From assembly GCF_019583405.1 (NCBI RefSeq), contig NZ_SZUU01000005.1:1-64000 (forward strand): 64,000 nt of DNA, read 5' to 3'. The notes beneath the pieces were generated by a model. That model saw nothing but the letters and a program-made list of their open reading frames with translations. It did not search any database and was not told where the DNA came from. Positions 25,025 through 62,431 of this stretch are shown piece by piece (the stretch's first letter is position 1; each line of letters opens with the position of its first letter). The DNA comes from Bacteroides fragilis. Its GTDB lineage: Bacteria; Bacteroidota; Bacteroidia; Bacteroidales; Bacteroidaceae. The position numbers and the translations under genes are program-made.

Positions 25025-26902
25025 CTATCGTCCGGAAAGGACCAGTAATACGTTGATGTCGCTTGGCGAAACACCGGGAATCCGGCTTGCTTGCGCTATT
25101 GTTTCGGGGTCGATTTTCTTAAGTTTCTGCCGGGCTTCAGTCGAAAGTGATTGAAGATTGTCATAATCGAACTTGCCCTTTATCTTAATACTTTCAAGTC
25201 TTGCCAACTTGTCAGCGATGATGCGTTCCCGTCCAATGTAGCCTTCATATTTGATTAGAATTTCTGCAGCTTCCAAAATTTCGTCTTTCCTTTCATCTGT
25301 GATTTTTTCTAATTCGCGCTTAAATGCCGGTATGTGTTCGGAGATGTTTTCTATTGTAATTTGCGGACGATTAATCAAATCAATCAACTTGCATCCGTGG
25401 CGTAGGGGAGTAGTCCCTAATTTTTCAAGTGCATCGTTTATTAGTGCAGCTTTAATTGAATAGTTACGGGTAAAGTTTACAATGCTTTCTATTGCTTCAC
25501 GCTTGCTCTTTAATAAAGCATAGCGGTCCTCTTTTACTAACCCCAATTTGTATGCTCTTTCTGTGAGTCGCATATCTGCATCGTCCATGCGAAGAAGAAT
25601 GCGATATTCGGCTCGTGAAGTAAACATGCGATAAGGTTCGTCAACACCTTTAGTCACGAGGTCGTCGATTAATACGCCAATATATGCTTCATCCCTTGCT
25701 AAGGTGAAAGGCTCCCCGCCATGGCAGTTGATGTGTGCATTAATACCTGCAATGATACCTTGTCCGCCGGCTTCTTCATATCCGGTAGTACCATTTACTT
25801 GTCCGGCGAAGAAGAGATTTCTGATTTTCTTCGATTCCAACGTGTGTTTTAGTTGTGTCGGATCAAAGTAGTCGTATTCGATAGCGTATCCCGGTCGATA
25901 AATAACGAGGTCTTTGAAAGCGGGAATCTTCTTCAGTGCTTTTATCTGTATATCCATCGGCAAAGATGAAGAGAATCCATTCAGATATAATTCCTGCGTA
26001 GTTTCTCCTTCCGGTTCAAGGAATAACTGGTGCTGTTCTTTATCGGGAAAGGTTACGATCTTTGTTTCGATACTCGGGCAATAGCGTGGTCCGATACTTT
26101 GTATTTGCCCGTTGAAAAGGGGAGAATCGGATAGACCGTTGCGCAGAATGTCATGTACTTCTTTATTTGTAAAGCACGTCCAGCATTGTAATTGCTTAAG
26201 ATGCCGCACGCTGGTATTCATGAATGAGAATTTGTGGAAATCGCATTCACCATCCTGAGTGTCCATCAGTTCGTAATGTACGCTTCTTCCGTCAATACGT
26301 ACAGGAGTGCCGGTCTTCATTCGTCCGTATTCAACGCCATGTTTTGCGATGGATTCGGTTAATTCGTAAGAGGCCGGTTCTGCCATACGTCCACCCGGAA
26401 GTTTTGTTTTTCCTACATGCATCAGTCCGTTCAGGAAGGTTCCTGCGGTCAATACGATGCATTTGGCGTGAAACGTCACATCCCAGAAAGTCTTCAGTCC
26501 CACAACCTCTCCGTTTTCAACGATAATTTCCTTTACGGTATCCTGCCAGATATGTAAATTAGGTATATTTTCTAATATTTCACGCCAGGCCCAGATAAAT
26601 TTATTCCGGTCGCACTGTGCACGCGGGCTCCACATAGCCGGTCCTTTCGAACGATTTAGTATACGGAACTGGATAGCTGTCTGATCTGTTACTAATCCCA
26701 TGTAGCCACCCAAAGCATCTATCTCACGTACAATTTGTCCTTTAGCAATCCCCCCTACAGCAGGGTTACAGCTCATTTGCGCCACCTTGTTCATATCCAT
26801 AGTGATAAGACAGGTTTTTGAGCCTAAATTTGCTGCCGCTGCAGCAGCCTCACAGCCTGCATGTCCGGCACCAATTACAATAACGTCGTACTTAAAATCC
26901 AT
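25025..26902 (-). CDS. mnmG: tRNA uridine-5-carboxymethylaminomethyl modification enzyme
   Basis: The FAD-dependent partner of MnmE in wobble-uridine modification. 625 residues, full length. The FAD-binding Rossmann motif is at the N-terminus (VIVIGAGHAGCEAAAAAANLG). Family segments SCNPAVGGIAKGQIVREIDALGG and LTAGTFLNGLMHVGK follow. The C-terminal helical domain ends RIPGVSPSDINVLLVLSGR, which contacts MnmE and tRNA. A -7 box TAACTTTG (minus) is at 26930-26937. The product acts on the same base as MnmD, encoded 20 kb away. Confidence 0.97.
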   Translation of the reverse strand: MDFKYDVIVIGAGHAGCEAAAAAANLGSKTCLITMDMNKVAQMSCNPAVGGIAKGQIVREIDALGGYMGLVTDQTAIQFRILNRSKGPAMWSPRAQCDRNKFIWAWREILENIPNLHIWQDTVKEIIVENGEVVGLKTFWDVTFHAKCIVLTAGTFLNGLMHVGKTKLPGGRMAEPASYELTESIAKHGVEYGRMKTGTPVRIDGRSVHYELMDTQDGECDFHKFSFMNTSVRHLKQLQCWTCFTNKEVHDILRNGLSDSPLFNGQIQSIGPRYCPSIETKIVTFPDKEQHQLFLEPEGETTQELYLNGFSSSLPMDIQIKALKKIPAFKDLVIYRPGYAIEYDYFDPTQLKHTLESKKIRNLFFAGQVNGTTGYEEAGGQGIIAGINAHINCHGGEPFTLARDEAYIGVLIDDLVTKGVDEPYRMFTSRAEYRILLRMDDADMRLTERAYKLGLVKEDRYALLKSKREAIESIVNFTRNYSIKAALINDALEKLGTTPLRHGCKLIDLINRPQITIENISEHIPAFKRELEKITDERKDEILEAAEILIKYEGYIGRERIIADKLARLESIKIKGKFDYDNLQSLSTEARQKLKKIDPETIAQASRIPGVSPSDINVLLVLSGR

Positions 26903-26937: not shown

Positions 26938-27156
26938 CGAAAAAGTTGTCAGTTGCGGGTTTTATGCAATAAGTTTTAAGTGTTTATAGGTATCACAAAC
27001 CAATGATTTGATTTATCGATAAGATCTTAATTTTGCCTTTTTACTACCAAAACGTTTGTGATTTGAACGTTTTAAAAAACGCTATTTGGGACGAAATACT
27101 CTTGATAGCTAAAAATATAAGCAATTGGGGTTCTTTTGGAGCGTAGGCGGTCAAAT

Positions 27157-27266
27157 GAAGTTAACTTCATACCTTCGGGAAGTTAACTTTTTGTTGATAA
27201 GATACTAATTCTTTCCAAGTACGAAGTTAACATCGTATTAACACGAAGTTAGGTTTTTGTTAAAAG
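27157..27266. repeat. Phased 22-bp repeat array (GAAGTTAAC)
   Basis: GAAGTTAAC occurs at 27157, 27179 and 27223, and GAAGTTAGG at 27245. All starts are spaced by 22 bp or 44 bp, with a degenerate unit (GATACTAAT) at the expected 27201. The second and last units also share TTTTTGTT. The first unit is inside the perfect 16-bp palindrome ATGAAGTTAACTTCAT (27155-27170). Two-turn spacing suggests protein binding on one DNA face. Confidence 0.75.
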
Positions 27267-27505
27267 AGGATGAACTTTATACTCAATAAGCTATTTAATA
27301 GTGTAAAAAATACCTTTTCTTTTTCTGAAATTCATCAGAAGTGTTTATGCTATTAAATGACTTTTTGTTGAATGCATCTATTTTTTGCTTCCTAATCTCC
27401 ATGTTCTGGTTTTCTATTTTGTCTTTTTGTTTGGGAAGGGTATAAATTCTTATCTTATTGAATTTATGTAATTCAAAATGCCAGCGTTTTTTTGAGTATT
27501 GTTTT

Positions 27506-27560
27506 CGGTTGGACGGAAATAGAGCGTTTTAGAAAGGTTTAAAAATACAGAATGACAGAT
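27506..27560 (+). repeat. 55-bp direct repeat, copy 1
   Basis: Identical over 55 bp to 31162-31216, in the same orientation. It begins CGGTTGGACGGAAATAG and ends ACAGAATGACAGAT. It is followed directly by a decayed regulator fragment. Confidence 0.95.
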
Positions 27561-27566
27561 TGGCAA

Positions 27567-27665
27567 TTGAAGCAAGCAGAGTTACGCTGCACCACTGAAG
27601 AGAAAGCATATTTGAGTAATTGCCTGTTTAAGGAGACTTCTATTTTAATCGTATCCGGGTACTAA
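27567..27665 (+). pseudogene. Remnant of a TPR regulator gene (C-terminal fragment)
   Basis: The frame from 27567 reads LKQAELRCTTEEKAYLSNCL, then FKETSI before a stop at 27663. This aligns with LKQAELCRVIDEKARLRNCL and FTETSI of the intact TPR regulator at 31294-32991. It is preceded by the same 55-bp sequence that precedes the intact gene. Most of the coding region (about 1.3 kb) has therefore been lost by internal deletion, and the 3' end is also missing. Confidence 0.75.
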
Positions 27666-27825: not shown

Positions 27826-28932
27826 ATGAAGAAGAGTTTATTGAAAGTTAGTAGCTTTGCGCTGCTATTGGGTGGTTGGCTATGTGCATGCCAAGATGAC
27901 CAAATTGTGGATCAAAAGGTTAGTTTAGACCATTCTAATACTATCCAATTAGTGGAAATAACAGATAATAATGAAGTTATTCCGGTTACATCCACTCGTG
28001 GTAATGTTGGTTCTGCTTCAAACTTAGCTCTTAGATTTGCTTCAGAGACGGATTATCTGGCAGCATTACGAGATATTGAGGGGAGAGATATTTCAGGAAA
28101 ATTGCGTTTTGCTGATTCGTTGGGATTGACTTCAATGCAAAAGTTACTTCAACTTGCAGATGATGAATTGGAAAGTATCGGTGCTAATGCTTTGAATGAA
28201 AGTGATTTTAGGAATAAATATAATGCGTATAAAGAAAAATATTCAAAGTATTTTGTCTTTAATCAAGTTGATAAATCAGATTTATCTGCTTATATGCCGG
28301 CTGGTGATGAAAAAGCGTCTTTCGTTGTAGGTATAGGTCATAAAGTGGTAGTAGGCAATAGAGTGGAGCGCATTGACTTTCATCAAAGAATGAGTGTCGA
28401 AGATTCTTTGTTATTTGCAAATAGTCCTTCAAAAGCAGCTCAACCGTTTACGAGAGCTTTAAAACCGGAAGCAGAATGGCCTGTTAATAGTTTCAATGAA
28501 CGTCCATTTAATGGGAAAAAAACCGTTTTTAATTTTAGACCTACGTCTGGCAGAGAATTTGAAATACATTTAGGTGCGCAAAAGAAAATGTGGTATGGAT
28601 GGAAAAAAGATCCTGCAAGAGACTTTTATTTAAAATTTAGTGTAAGTAATTTTCAGTGCGTTGTAGCGGGAGCTGGTGGTCATCCTGTTTGGACAAGTTC
28701 GCCGGAATATATTTATTCGTTTTTGGGAGCGAAAGGTAAAGTAAACATGACTATTGGGCGTGGATTAGGCGGAAATATTGAGGGGAAAGCATATGTCTGG
28801 ACTGATCAAACTATTGAAAAGGATGCAAAGGGTAATGTGATAATGGAGCTGGTGAATAAAAGACCTTACCCGAAAGGTAATATCAATAATTCTTTGCCAT
28901 GTAAGTTATCTTGGGCAAATGGTACTTATTAA
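27826..28932 (+). CDS. Lipoprotein of unknown function
   Basis: 368 residues. The signal peptide ends with a lipobox-like GGWLCAC near residues 17-22. The mature part is polar, with helical segments around residues 75-135 and a beta/aromatic region after 200 (FNFRPTSGREFEIHLGAQKKMWYGW). The length and style recall Bacteroides families such as DUF4848, but I cannot confirm that. An outer-membrane beta-barrel gene starts 13 bp later, so the two are probably co-transcribed and co-localised at the outer membrane. The gene lies downstream of a decayed regulator and the shared promoter motif, and is more AT-rich than the surrounding core genes. Confidence 0.75.
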   Translation: MKKSLLKVSSFALLLGGWLCACQDDQIVDQKVSLDHSNTIQLVEITDNNEVIPVTSTRGNVGSASNLALRFASETDYLAALRDIEGRDISGKLRFADSLGLTSMQKLLQLADDELESIGANALNESDFRNKYNAYKEKYSKYFVFNQVDKSDLSAYMPAGDEKASFVVGIGHKVVVGNRVERIDFHQRMSVEDSLLFANSPSKAAQPFTRALKPEAEWPVNSFNERPFNGKKTVFNFRPTSGREFEIHLGAQKKMWYGWKKDPARDFYLKFSVSNFQCVVAGAGGHPVWTSSPEYIYSFLGAKGKVNMTIGRGLGGNIEGKAYVWTDQTIEKDAKGNVIMELVNKRPYPKGNINNSLPCKLSWANGTY

Positions 28933-31081: not shown

Positions 31082-31161
31082 TTGTTCGTATAAATGGCAA
31101 ATTGTTGTTTTATTGATATCGCGAGAATCGAAATACAGGCGTTTTTTTTTAATGAGTCTTC

Positions 31162-31216
31162 CGGTTGGACGGAAATAGAGCGTTTTAGAAAGGTTTAAAA
31201 ATACAGAATGACAGAT
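31162..31216 (+). repeat. 55-bp direct repeat, copy 2
   Basis: Identical to 27506-27560. It lies 25 bp before the promoter of the intact TPR regulator. Confidence 0.95.
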
Positions 31217-31240
31217 AGACAGTTGCCTTCCCTTGAAAAA

Positions 31241-31293: not shown

Positions 31294-32991
31294 ATGAATA
31301 AGATATTTGTCGGTTTTATCTTTTTATTGTCTTTAGTGAGCGGAGTAGTTTCTTGTCAACGCTCTTCGTCACCGTATCCGTATTCTTTGAGATATGCCGA
31401 TTCTTTGATGGAGATATCTCCTGAACGTACGTTGGCTTATCTTCGTAAACTTGATGTTTCTACTTATTCAGCGGGTGACCGAGCATATTTCAGTTTACTT
31501 TTGACACAGGCTACTGATAAAAACTTTTTGCCACTTCTTCCCTGTGATTCACTGATTGATACCGCACTAGATTATTATGCTAAAAAAGATGGTGTCAATT
31601 GGGCTAAAGCTTGGCTTTATAAAGGGCGGATTCAAAAACAAATGAATATGACTGAACAGGCTTTGAAGAGTTGCTTTACTGCTTTGCAGGGAGTTGAAGG
31701 AAATGCCGGGGAGGAATTAAAGCTGAAAGGAATGCTATATGAAGATATGGGATCGATTTATTTACATCAATTTCTTTATCAGAAAGCGTTTGATGCGTTT
31801 TATCGCTCTTATCAATGTGATTCTTTACTGAATGACCATAAAGTATTAATGTATTCTCTTTCGAATATGGGATGGGTGCGTGTTGTTGAAGGAAAAGAAA
31901 AGGAAGCTTTGTTTTATCTCGATCAAGCCTTAGAGTTAGCATTGGCTTTGAAAGATTCTGTTTTTATGAGTGATATATACCAACGTATGAGCCTAAATTG
32001 TGAGAATGTTGACTCTGCATTTATGTATGCTCGTTTGGCCGAAAATTATCTGACGGAGAAGAATGATTCTATTGGTTACTATAGTTTGTGGTTAACATTT
32101 GGGGAACTATATTTGGATAAACAAGAGTTAGACTCTGCAGAATATTATTTAAAGCGTACACTGGATATTGCTGATTTTAAAAGGAAGATATTAGCGTCGT
32201 ATTCTTTGGCTGAGGTTGAGAAGATTAGGGGTAACTATCAACGAGCTTTTGAATATCAGTCCTATTATGGCGATAATATAGACTCTATTTTTTCGTTAAA
32301 CAAAGCCTCCGACATTGAGCGCTTGGCGTATAAATATGATTCAGAAGCGAAGGTAGCAAAAGAAAAGGAAAGGCATAGGCTTTTAGTTCAGCAGCTCTGT
32401 TATGGAGGAGTTTTGTTTGTGCTGGTTATTGCTATCATTTTTCAACGTATTTATAGGCGACGTCGAATAGCCCAGTTGCTGTATGAACAGCGTATAGCTC
32501 ATTTAAATGAGCAAACAGCTTTATCTCAATTACAAATAGAACGTTTAGAGGCTCAAATCTCTGCTTTAAAACAGTCTGACATGGAGCGTGAACAGGAAAT
32601 AGCTTTGAAACAGGCAGAATTGTGCCGTGTCATTGATGAAAAAGCACGCTTGCGTAACTGTCTGTTTACAGAGACTTCTATTTTTAAGCGTATTCAAGAA
32701 TTGAGCAGTCAGGCTAAGCCGGGGCAAGATGGAGTGAAAAGGGATCCGAAAGTTCTTCTTATCAAAGAACAGGAGCAATTGAAAGGTGTGTTATTTGATA
32801 TTTATGATGATTATATCCGATACCTTACGGATACCTATCCTAAAATAACCGATGACGACTGTATTTATTGTTGTTTGAAACTTTGTGAATTTGACGATCA
32901 AACCATAGCTTATTGTTTTGGTAATGTGAGTAGGCAAATTGTGGCCCAGCGGCGTTTACGATTGAAGAAGAAAATGGCTGAAACCAATTGA
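31294..32991 (+). CDS. TPR-containing membrane regulator with C-terminal helix-turn-helix
   Basis: 565 residues. The N-terminus has a signal or lipobox (LVSGVVSCQ, Cys at about 21). TPR-like helices fill residues 35-350. A transmembrane segment (QQLCYGGVLFVLVIAIIF) lies at about 365-385, then a coiled coil to about 450. The C-terminal ~60 residues (LTDTYPKITDDDCIYCCLKL, FDDQTIAYCFGNVSRQIVAQ, RRLRLKKKM) resemble the LuxR-like helix-turn-helix at the end of Bacteroides TPR regulators. It would sense from the periplasmic side and act on DNA near the membrane. It lies directly upstream of operon B and probably controls it; a paralogue upstream of operon A is decayed. Confidence 0.8.
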   Translation: MNKIFVGFIFLLSLVSGVVSCQRSSSPYPYSLRYADSLMEISPERTLAYLRKLDVSTYSAGDRAYFSLLLTQATDKNFLPLLPCDSLIDTALDYYAKKDGVNWAKAWLYKGRIQKQMNMTEQALKSCFTALQGVEGNAGEELKLKGMLYEDMGSIYLHQFLYQKAFDAFYRSYQCDSLLNDHKVLMYSLSNMGWVRVVEGKEKEALFYLDQALELALALKDSVFMSDIYQRMSLNCENVDSAFMYARLAENYLTEKNDSIGYYSLWLTFGELYLDKQELDSAEYYLKRTLDIADFKRKILASYSLAEVEKIRGNYQRAFEYQSYYGDNIDSIFSLNKASDIERLAYKYDSEAKVAKEKERHRLLVQQLCYGGVLFVLVIAIIFQRIYRRRRIAQLLYEQRIAHLNEQTALSQLQIERLEAQISALKQSDMEREQEIALKQAELCRVIDEKARLRNCLFTETSIFKRIQELSSQAKPGQDGVKRDPKVLLIKEQEQLKGVLFDIYDDYIRYLTDTYPKITDDDCIYCCLKLCEFDDQTIAYCFGNVSRQIVAQRRLRLKKKMAETN

Positions 32992-44176: not shown

Positions 44177-44608
44177 GTGTTTTTGGGGACAATATAAATA
44201 AGAGAACCCTGACTTAATCTTTTCTTATCATTTTGACTTTTTGCTTTCCTGACCCTTCCAGAATCGTTTATTTCGGGTCTCTCTCCGGTTGGTGTGAAAA
44301 AAACGTCCGGAATTTGCATTAGGCTCGGGATTCGTTGTCTTTGATTCGATTGATCTGCTTTCTCTTTTCAGGGTATGTCGGGCGATTGCAAACAAATAGT
44401 TGTTTTATCTCTTTGTTTGAGCTCTTTTTGGTAGTTTCCGGTTGCTGCTCTATTGAAATGAACCAGGTTGTGAACAGAAGCTTTTTCGGAAAAAGTGGGA
44501 ATAAAGAAGGCCTCTTCTTCCGATAGAGTAAGCATTTGCTCCGGATGGAGTAACCTTTCGGGGGAAATGCAGGTTGCATTTCGTCCGGAAGCCTGCTCTT
44601 CGGAGTGA

Positions 44609-62176: not shown

Positions 62177-62287
62177 AGAATCTGATATCAGGGGGAGGAT
62201 CACTCAAGGACTCCCTTTCTTTTAAAGAAAAGATAGGTTACTGCCCCAAGAGATGCAAGTTGACTAACATTCCCGTGTGTTGGTCAA

Positions 62288-62309
62288 GATTTTACGTACT
62301 GACGTAAAA
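62288..62309. repeat. Small palindrome TTTTACGT-ACTG-ACGTAAAA
   Basis: A perfect 8-bp inverted repeat, followed within 40 bp by two more TTTAC words (62311 and about 62335). It lies between the convergent DUF4348 and dus genes. Confidence 0.6.
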
Positions 62310-62431
62310 GCCTTTACATGCCGGGGTAAATGCTTTTACATCGAAAGGAAAATACAGGTAAATATAATTTGCTGACTATCAGTGATAATGAAACGGATGC
62401 CAAACTACGCATTGTCCGGATGAACTTTCTG

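Follow-up and report, generated by a model that had tools for sequence, protein, structure and literature searches.

Tandem units, either dyads or direct repeats, that recur in a few copies at a spacing of two helical turns are familiar from operator arrays and plasmid iterons. HU proteins are usually described as weakly sequence-specific; the HU/IHF superfamily also includes HU-HIG (PF18291), a known Pfam family. Repeats dispersed between genes include the palindromes of REP/BIME elements, which occur with RAYT, as well as MITEs. In Porphyromonas gingivalis, BrickBuilt repeats are tandem 23-nt units dispersed between genes; an element has a leader, between 1 and 22.8 repeats, a tail, and terminal inverted repeats of the IS5 type, and the same report mentions 22-nt tandem repeats for strain W83 (PMC4596501).

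Here, we studied an array of 22-bp units in a 64,000-nt stretch of Bacteroides fragilis DNA (the window), along with arrays elsewhere in its genome (G000) and in other genomes. Like operator arrays and iterons, these arrays consist of a few tandem copies of a dyad or direct unit, spaced by two turns; unlike them, they form many unrelated families per genome, occur chromosome-wide, and are linked to HU-HIG rather than initiator genes. The array-bearing genes match HU-HIG, whose longer members are modeled as an HU domain plus a winged-helix-like domain, but the private 22-bp arrays at these genes contrast with the weak sequence specificity of HU. Judged from titles and the openings of abstracts, literature searches returned no account of 22-bp arrays tied to HU-HIG genes. 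With REP/BIME elements the arrays share a dispersed, extragenic, and palindromic character, but not their own fixed 22-bp phase. The RAYT transposase (Y1_Tnp) was matched in 3 of 16 genomes (G030, G208, and G078, with arrays present in G030 and G078) and had no match in G000, G269, G272, G021, G263, G277, or G136; because the three genomes richest in arrays lack it, we did not make a REP/RAYT assignment. BrickBuilt repeats are likewise dispersed, intergenic, and tandem, at 23 nt against 22 bp here, but our arrays mostly have four or five units and no common ends that we could see. As to MITEs, inspection by eye found no common ends in the 22 loci of G000, and some copies in genome G324 have longer common flanks.

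We consider it somewhat probable that 22-bp arrays are cognate docking or operator sites of diversified HU-HIG proteins, and that the array in the window is one dispersed site of this kind.

Results

The array upstream of mnmG

The array lies in a 923-bp gap around which mnmG (25025–26902, minus strand) and a gene for a DUF4848 protein (27826–28932, plus strand; PF16140) are divergent, each transcribed away from the gap. It consists of five units on the plus strand (27157–27266), starting at 27157, 27179, 27201, 27223, and 27245. The initial annotation had listed GAAGTTA-type units at all of these positions except 27201, where it saw a degenerate unit in an otherwise vacant slot, and had placed the first unit in a 16-bp perfect palindrome and the whole array next to mnmG. 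Each of these statements holds: the four positions are exact, the third unit (27201–27222) reads GATACTAATTC, the palindrome surrounding unit 1, as read from the sequence, is ATGAAGTTAACTTCAT (27155–27170), and the neighboring gene matches TIGR00136 with an E-value of 1e-237.

There are four matches to GAAGTTAAC in the window, against 0.61 expected and a maximum of three among 100 shuffles. For a motif chosen post hoc, the five positions together score 39/45, and the best of 1000 shuffled versions of the gap that kept its dinucleotides scored 28. The motif-free score of 46/88 for lag 22 is attained by that lag in 2 of 1000 such shuffles, and by any lag of 15–60 in 33 of 1000, so that, with the motif ignored, the window array on its own is only moderately unlikely. 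The stronger evidence for it comes from outside the window, from the genome-wide matches and from its counterpart in the related genome G269.

With its dyad-symmetric units, 22-bp steps, several copies, and intergenic position, the array has the features of the wider group described below. It falls under the threshold of our generic survey (60% over 44 bp), which misses it because its units are too degenerate. In the window, the generic detector reported two other lag-22 arrays, and a single detection over all other lags of 15–59. The second array in the window (62275–62369) is unrelated in sequence, with TTTAC and GTAAA half-sites alternating, and the third (44495–44561) is weak. Two parts of the mnmG-side gap recur nearby: 27444–27569 resembles window positions 31099–31225 (79% similar), and 27567–27654 resembles 32605–32693 (75%).

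The GAAGTTAAC family and its conservation

A genome-wide count of such arrays had been suggested in the annotation; searching the 5.02-Mb genome of the window with a two-unit pattern (up to two mismatches) gave 71 matches, compared with six for the reversed control. These matches group into 22 intergenic loci (21 clusters plus L043, added by hand; L048 and L054 had pattern matches yet no array), mostly with four or five units at 22-bp steps and an occasional step of 23. Units of the family are palindrome-like, about TACGAWRTTAAYWTCGTA plus 4 bp, i.e., inverted half-sites approximately every 11 bp. The arrays stand beside unrelated genes in convergent, divergent, and tandem settings, and because this is true of the other 21 loci, adjacency to mnmG looks incidental.

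Twenty of the 22 loci have an array in the same place in G269, including the pair L045/L104, which an insertion interrupts in G269; for L041 and L042, none of the 23 G269 loci examined is a partner. The annotation had let its reading depend on conservation in close relatives, and array and spacing are indeed preserved in G272, G352, and G269. The G269 counterpart has the same place and spacing, and its vacant unit reads GATATTAATTC. In all nine pairs in which both flanks are under 90% identical, the array is more similar than either flank; in several closer G000/G269 pairs, it is less similar than the flanks. The G269 array L091 has exactly one 22-bp unit fewer than its G000 partner L052, and copy number therefore changes by whole units. 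L051 and L092 differ by the inversion of a short loop.

Some of these comparisons bear on whether the arrays act as RNA or single-stranded DNA hairpins, such as terminators or processing sites. Long palindromes are preserved by symmetric, paired changes between G000 and G269 (L038/L099 and L056/L095), as hairpins would be, but many array units are plain direct repeats, the arrays occur between convergent, divergent, and tandem genes alike, and Rfam at gathering thresholds gave no match anywhere in the window. We regard a hairpin role as extremely improbable.

The gap upstream of mnmG differs between species in the presence and kind of array. With the fragilis matrix, a phased array was found there in six of the 29 genomes with a match, namely G272, G352, and G269 and, differently spelled, G277, G324, and G365; in G363, the gap is short and without an array. 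This variability, together with the dispersal of related copies to unrelated intergenic places, is what would be expected if the arrays were MITE- or ERIC-like palindromic elements, mobile but non-autonomous, with the 22-bp step a need of the transposase and the link to HU-HIG reflecting a common mobile module or host factor. We judge this unlikely, given that the flanks of the 22 fragilis-type loci show no common ends by eye, that 20 of these loci are in place in both G000 and G269, and that arrays at HU-HIG genes occupy a promoter position.

Across the genus, 37 of 158 genomes matched the two-unit pattern (up to two mismatches; reversed control, 0–1 per genome), with 41 matches in G272, 36 in G000, 34 in G269, and 28 in G021. 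A family-wide sample at up to three mismatches likewise had matches in 37 of 201 genomes, many of them single and at control level; the reversed control reached 40 matches in one genome, G251. Three-unit matches came from B. fragilis Q1F2, B. cutis, Segatella albensis, Phocaeicola sartorii, and several MAGs; the 24 stretches found by this search include several other simple repeats (L148, L154, and L155) and one from Methanosarcina.

A 22-bp period independent of unit sequence

The period is broader than any one unit. In mapped mnmG-upstream gaps of other species, 22-bp arrays of unrelated sequence were found, and 22-bp arrays in general have diverse units, among them GGCTACACCCTTT, GATATATAGAT, TTCCCACTACGACTGAAGG, and TGTGGCATT. 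In 400 kb of unselected G324 DNA, there are 17 non-coding loci at lag 22, compared with a mean of 0.16 and a maximum of one for other lags (multiples of 11 left out). The same amount of G000 DNA, from stretches chosen to avoid known GAAGTTAAC loci, has four. Per 80 kb, we counted three such loci in G266, two in G368, one in G209, and none in G240 or G038; 100 kb of Escherichia coli had none.

Arrays upstream of HU-HIG genes

PF18291 has 45 matches in G324 and 14 in G000, a few of which are ordinary HU. Loci were examined for 36 of the 45 and for all 14, and 15 of these 50 genes (14/36 and 1/14) have an upstream array no more than 250 bp away; other lags gave 0–3, and the harmonic lag 44 gave 12. 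Among the best 30 of 101 matches in G266, G277, and G020, 18 genes have an upstream array (other lags, 0–1; lag 44, 13). For 30 of 79 matches in G136, G021, G263, G030, and G168, the count is 12 (other lags, 0–2; lag 44, five), two of them doubtful in that the arrays at L391 and L396, being AT-rich or of simple sequence, are likely to be spurious. Pooled by protein length, arrays precede 36 of 47 genes for proteins of at least 195 aa, nine of 59 for 120–194 aa, and none of four for shorter proteins.

Control genes had an upstream array in 9 of 248 cases in G324 (the HU-HIG gene of L242 included) and in 0 of 284 in G000. By Fisher's test, 14/36 against 9/248 in G324 gives P = 8e-9, and the pooled long class against the G324 controls gives P = 4e-28, a comparison that mixes genomes and includes partly best-scoring genes. 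The HU-HIG sets are not independent, since G277 and G324 contribute several orthologs (such as L310/L359 and L320/L374) and L351 and L352 are near-identical.

A modeled long member has an HU-like domain followed by a C-terminal helical domain (mean pLDDT 85, pTM 0.49); the model matches HU structures, and winged-helix proteins weakly.

Unit sequence varies among HU-HIG genes. One family found at their promoters recurs as dispersed arrays in the same genomes. Searched as three units at 22 bp with up to three mismatches (reversed control, 0), CACTNNAGTG arrays occur at nine places in G020, two of which are the promoters of HU-HIG genes L348 and L360, and at five places in G266, one of them the promoter of HU-HIG gene L357. 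Beyond these two genomes, in which HU-HIG genes were located, there are seven such places in G368 and five in G267, and none in G324, G000, or G029. The L360 and L357 proteins are closely related, with a score of 983; of the G324 proteins, 36 of 45 of which were read, the highest-scoring reaches 418. When 46 HU-HIG arrays were compared with 50 dispersed arrays, 12 pairs scored at least 22, against a maximum of 21 in a column-permuted null. These pairs involve six of the 50 dispersed arrays, five at the mnmG loci of other genomes and one in G324 (L244/L338); the remaining 44 did not exceed the null maximum with any of the 46 HU-HIG arrays. Similarity between proteins and similarity between arrays were not significantly correlated across all pairs (Spearman 0.125, P = 0.17), and the three most similar HU-HIG protein pairs also rank as the three most similar in their arrays.

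These data also speak to whether the arrays are operators of another protein family, for which HU-HIG genes are merely frequent targets. The pattern is broken in either direction, by the 9 of 59 HU-HIG genes of 120–194 aa and by 11 of 47 longer ones, and eight or nine of the 248 control genes also have an upstream array. On the other hand, L357 and L360, which are related, have one and the same array family at their promoters, that family has dispersed copies in their genomes, and units differ from one HU-HIG gene to another; we find operators of another family distinctly unlikely.

Among the 14 HU-HIG loci of G000, one has an upstream array, of a different unit, and none has a GAAGTTAAC array. 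A GAAGTTAAC-family array in a HU-HIG promoter was found only in viral contigs. Fifteen viral-contig stretches had a two-unit match, most of them without an array. In L295 and L287, three-unit GTTAAC arrays stand directly before a HU-HIG gene, with proteins 96% identical; a third contig, L414, encodes a 62%-identical HU-HIG homolog, whose upstream region has two GTTAAC palindromes at a distance of 22 bp. HU-HIG-linked GTTAAC arrays are thus known from three viral contigs of two lineages. A candidate partner for GAAGTTAAC in G136 was rejected, the upstream regions of two HU-HIG genes there carrying a different palindrome.

A 22-bp step with three to seven copies would also fit iterons, that is, plasmid or phage origin sequences that persist as relics or that serve to decoy foreign initiators. 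Some arrays do lie in viral contigs, one HU-HIG promoter array has a VapE-like gene on its other side, and in Segatella a Rep3-like gene follows an array, but the Rep3 match (21.6 bits) is under the cut-off of 22.4, and this protein, the one initiator sought, has no relative at the other loci examined. No initiator gene adjoins the window array, whose neighbors are mnmG and the DUF4848 gene. Similarity searches against plasmids with two array queries gave only weak matches (two records and one), that from a B. fragilis plasmid lying upstream of a sigma-70 gene, and we did not retain a plasmid origin on this basis. We regard iterons as very unlikely.

Proposed role of the arrays

Period, dispersal, conservation, promoter linkage, and the sequence match of some promoter arrays with dispersed arrays are directly supported. 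From the two-turn phasing, the initial annotation had proposed cooperative binding by one protein, as in iterons or operator arrays. The proposed cooperative binding gains indirect support, since 22 bp is preserved despite differing units and arrays lie in promoters of HU-like genes; the iteron reading was not established. If the arrays are HU-HIG sites, each would be a docking site for a single dimeric DNA-binding protein in several copies, one dimer per dyad and per 22 bp, and because 22 bp is two helical turns, adjacent bound dimers would stack along the same face of the helix. Each array family would most likely be read by its own HU-HIG member, with an HU domain and, in longer members, a putative winged-helix domain after it. 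Such a protein may bind the array in its own promoter, giving autoregulation, and further dispersed intergenic arrays, giving local control of chromatin or expression; binding, autoregulation, and any effect on neighboring genes are predictions from sequence patterns. We infer, tentatively and at slightly less than even chances, a HU-HIG protein as the putative partner of the GAAGTTAAC family in G000.

A wider possibility, which we hold to be plausible but not quite probable, is a many-coded chromatin system, in which dozens of HU-like proteins per Bacteroides genome would each have their own 22-bp phased palindromic code, an autoregulatory promoter array, and several dispersed arrays, with codes that diverge among paralogs as well as among species; in that case, the array in the window would be a site of the GTTAAC code. 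If HU-HIG proteins do read the arrays, target sites would become known for a large protein family of dominant gut bacteria that has received little study, and HU-like proteins would have diversified sequence codes rather than a general DNA-coating role. Many HU-HIG genes are now paired with a candidate binding site, which opens the question to direct testing, and every site family points to more predicted target loci within the same genome.

Several minor observations concern the setting of arrays. In Segatella albensis (L160, 2487–5004), a GAAGTTAAC array, the Rep3-like gene, and a HU-HIG gene follow one another in one direction, and at L242 (14917–17159), a VapE-like gene is separated from a divergent HU-HIG gene by a 22-bp array. 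Some crowding of arrays is apparent on contig C2 of G000 and from 1.96 to 3.06 Mb in G269, from which we draw no conclusion on chromosome position. G324 has many theta-type GAAGTTAAC arrays (L190–L218) bordered by TGATWATCA, several with longer common flanks. Another 22-bp family, of the GAAATTTATTTCGTCCGCAGAC type, was seen in another genus, with 84 matches in G078 and three in G143.
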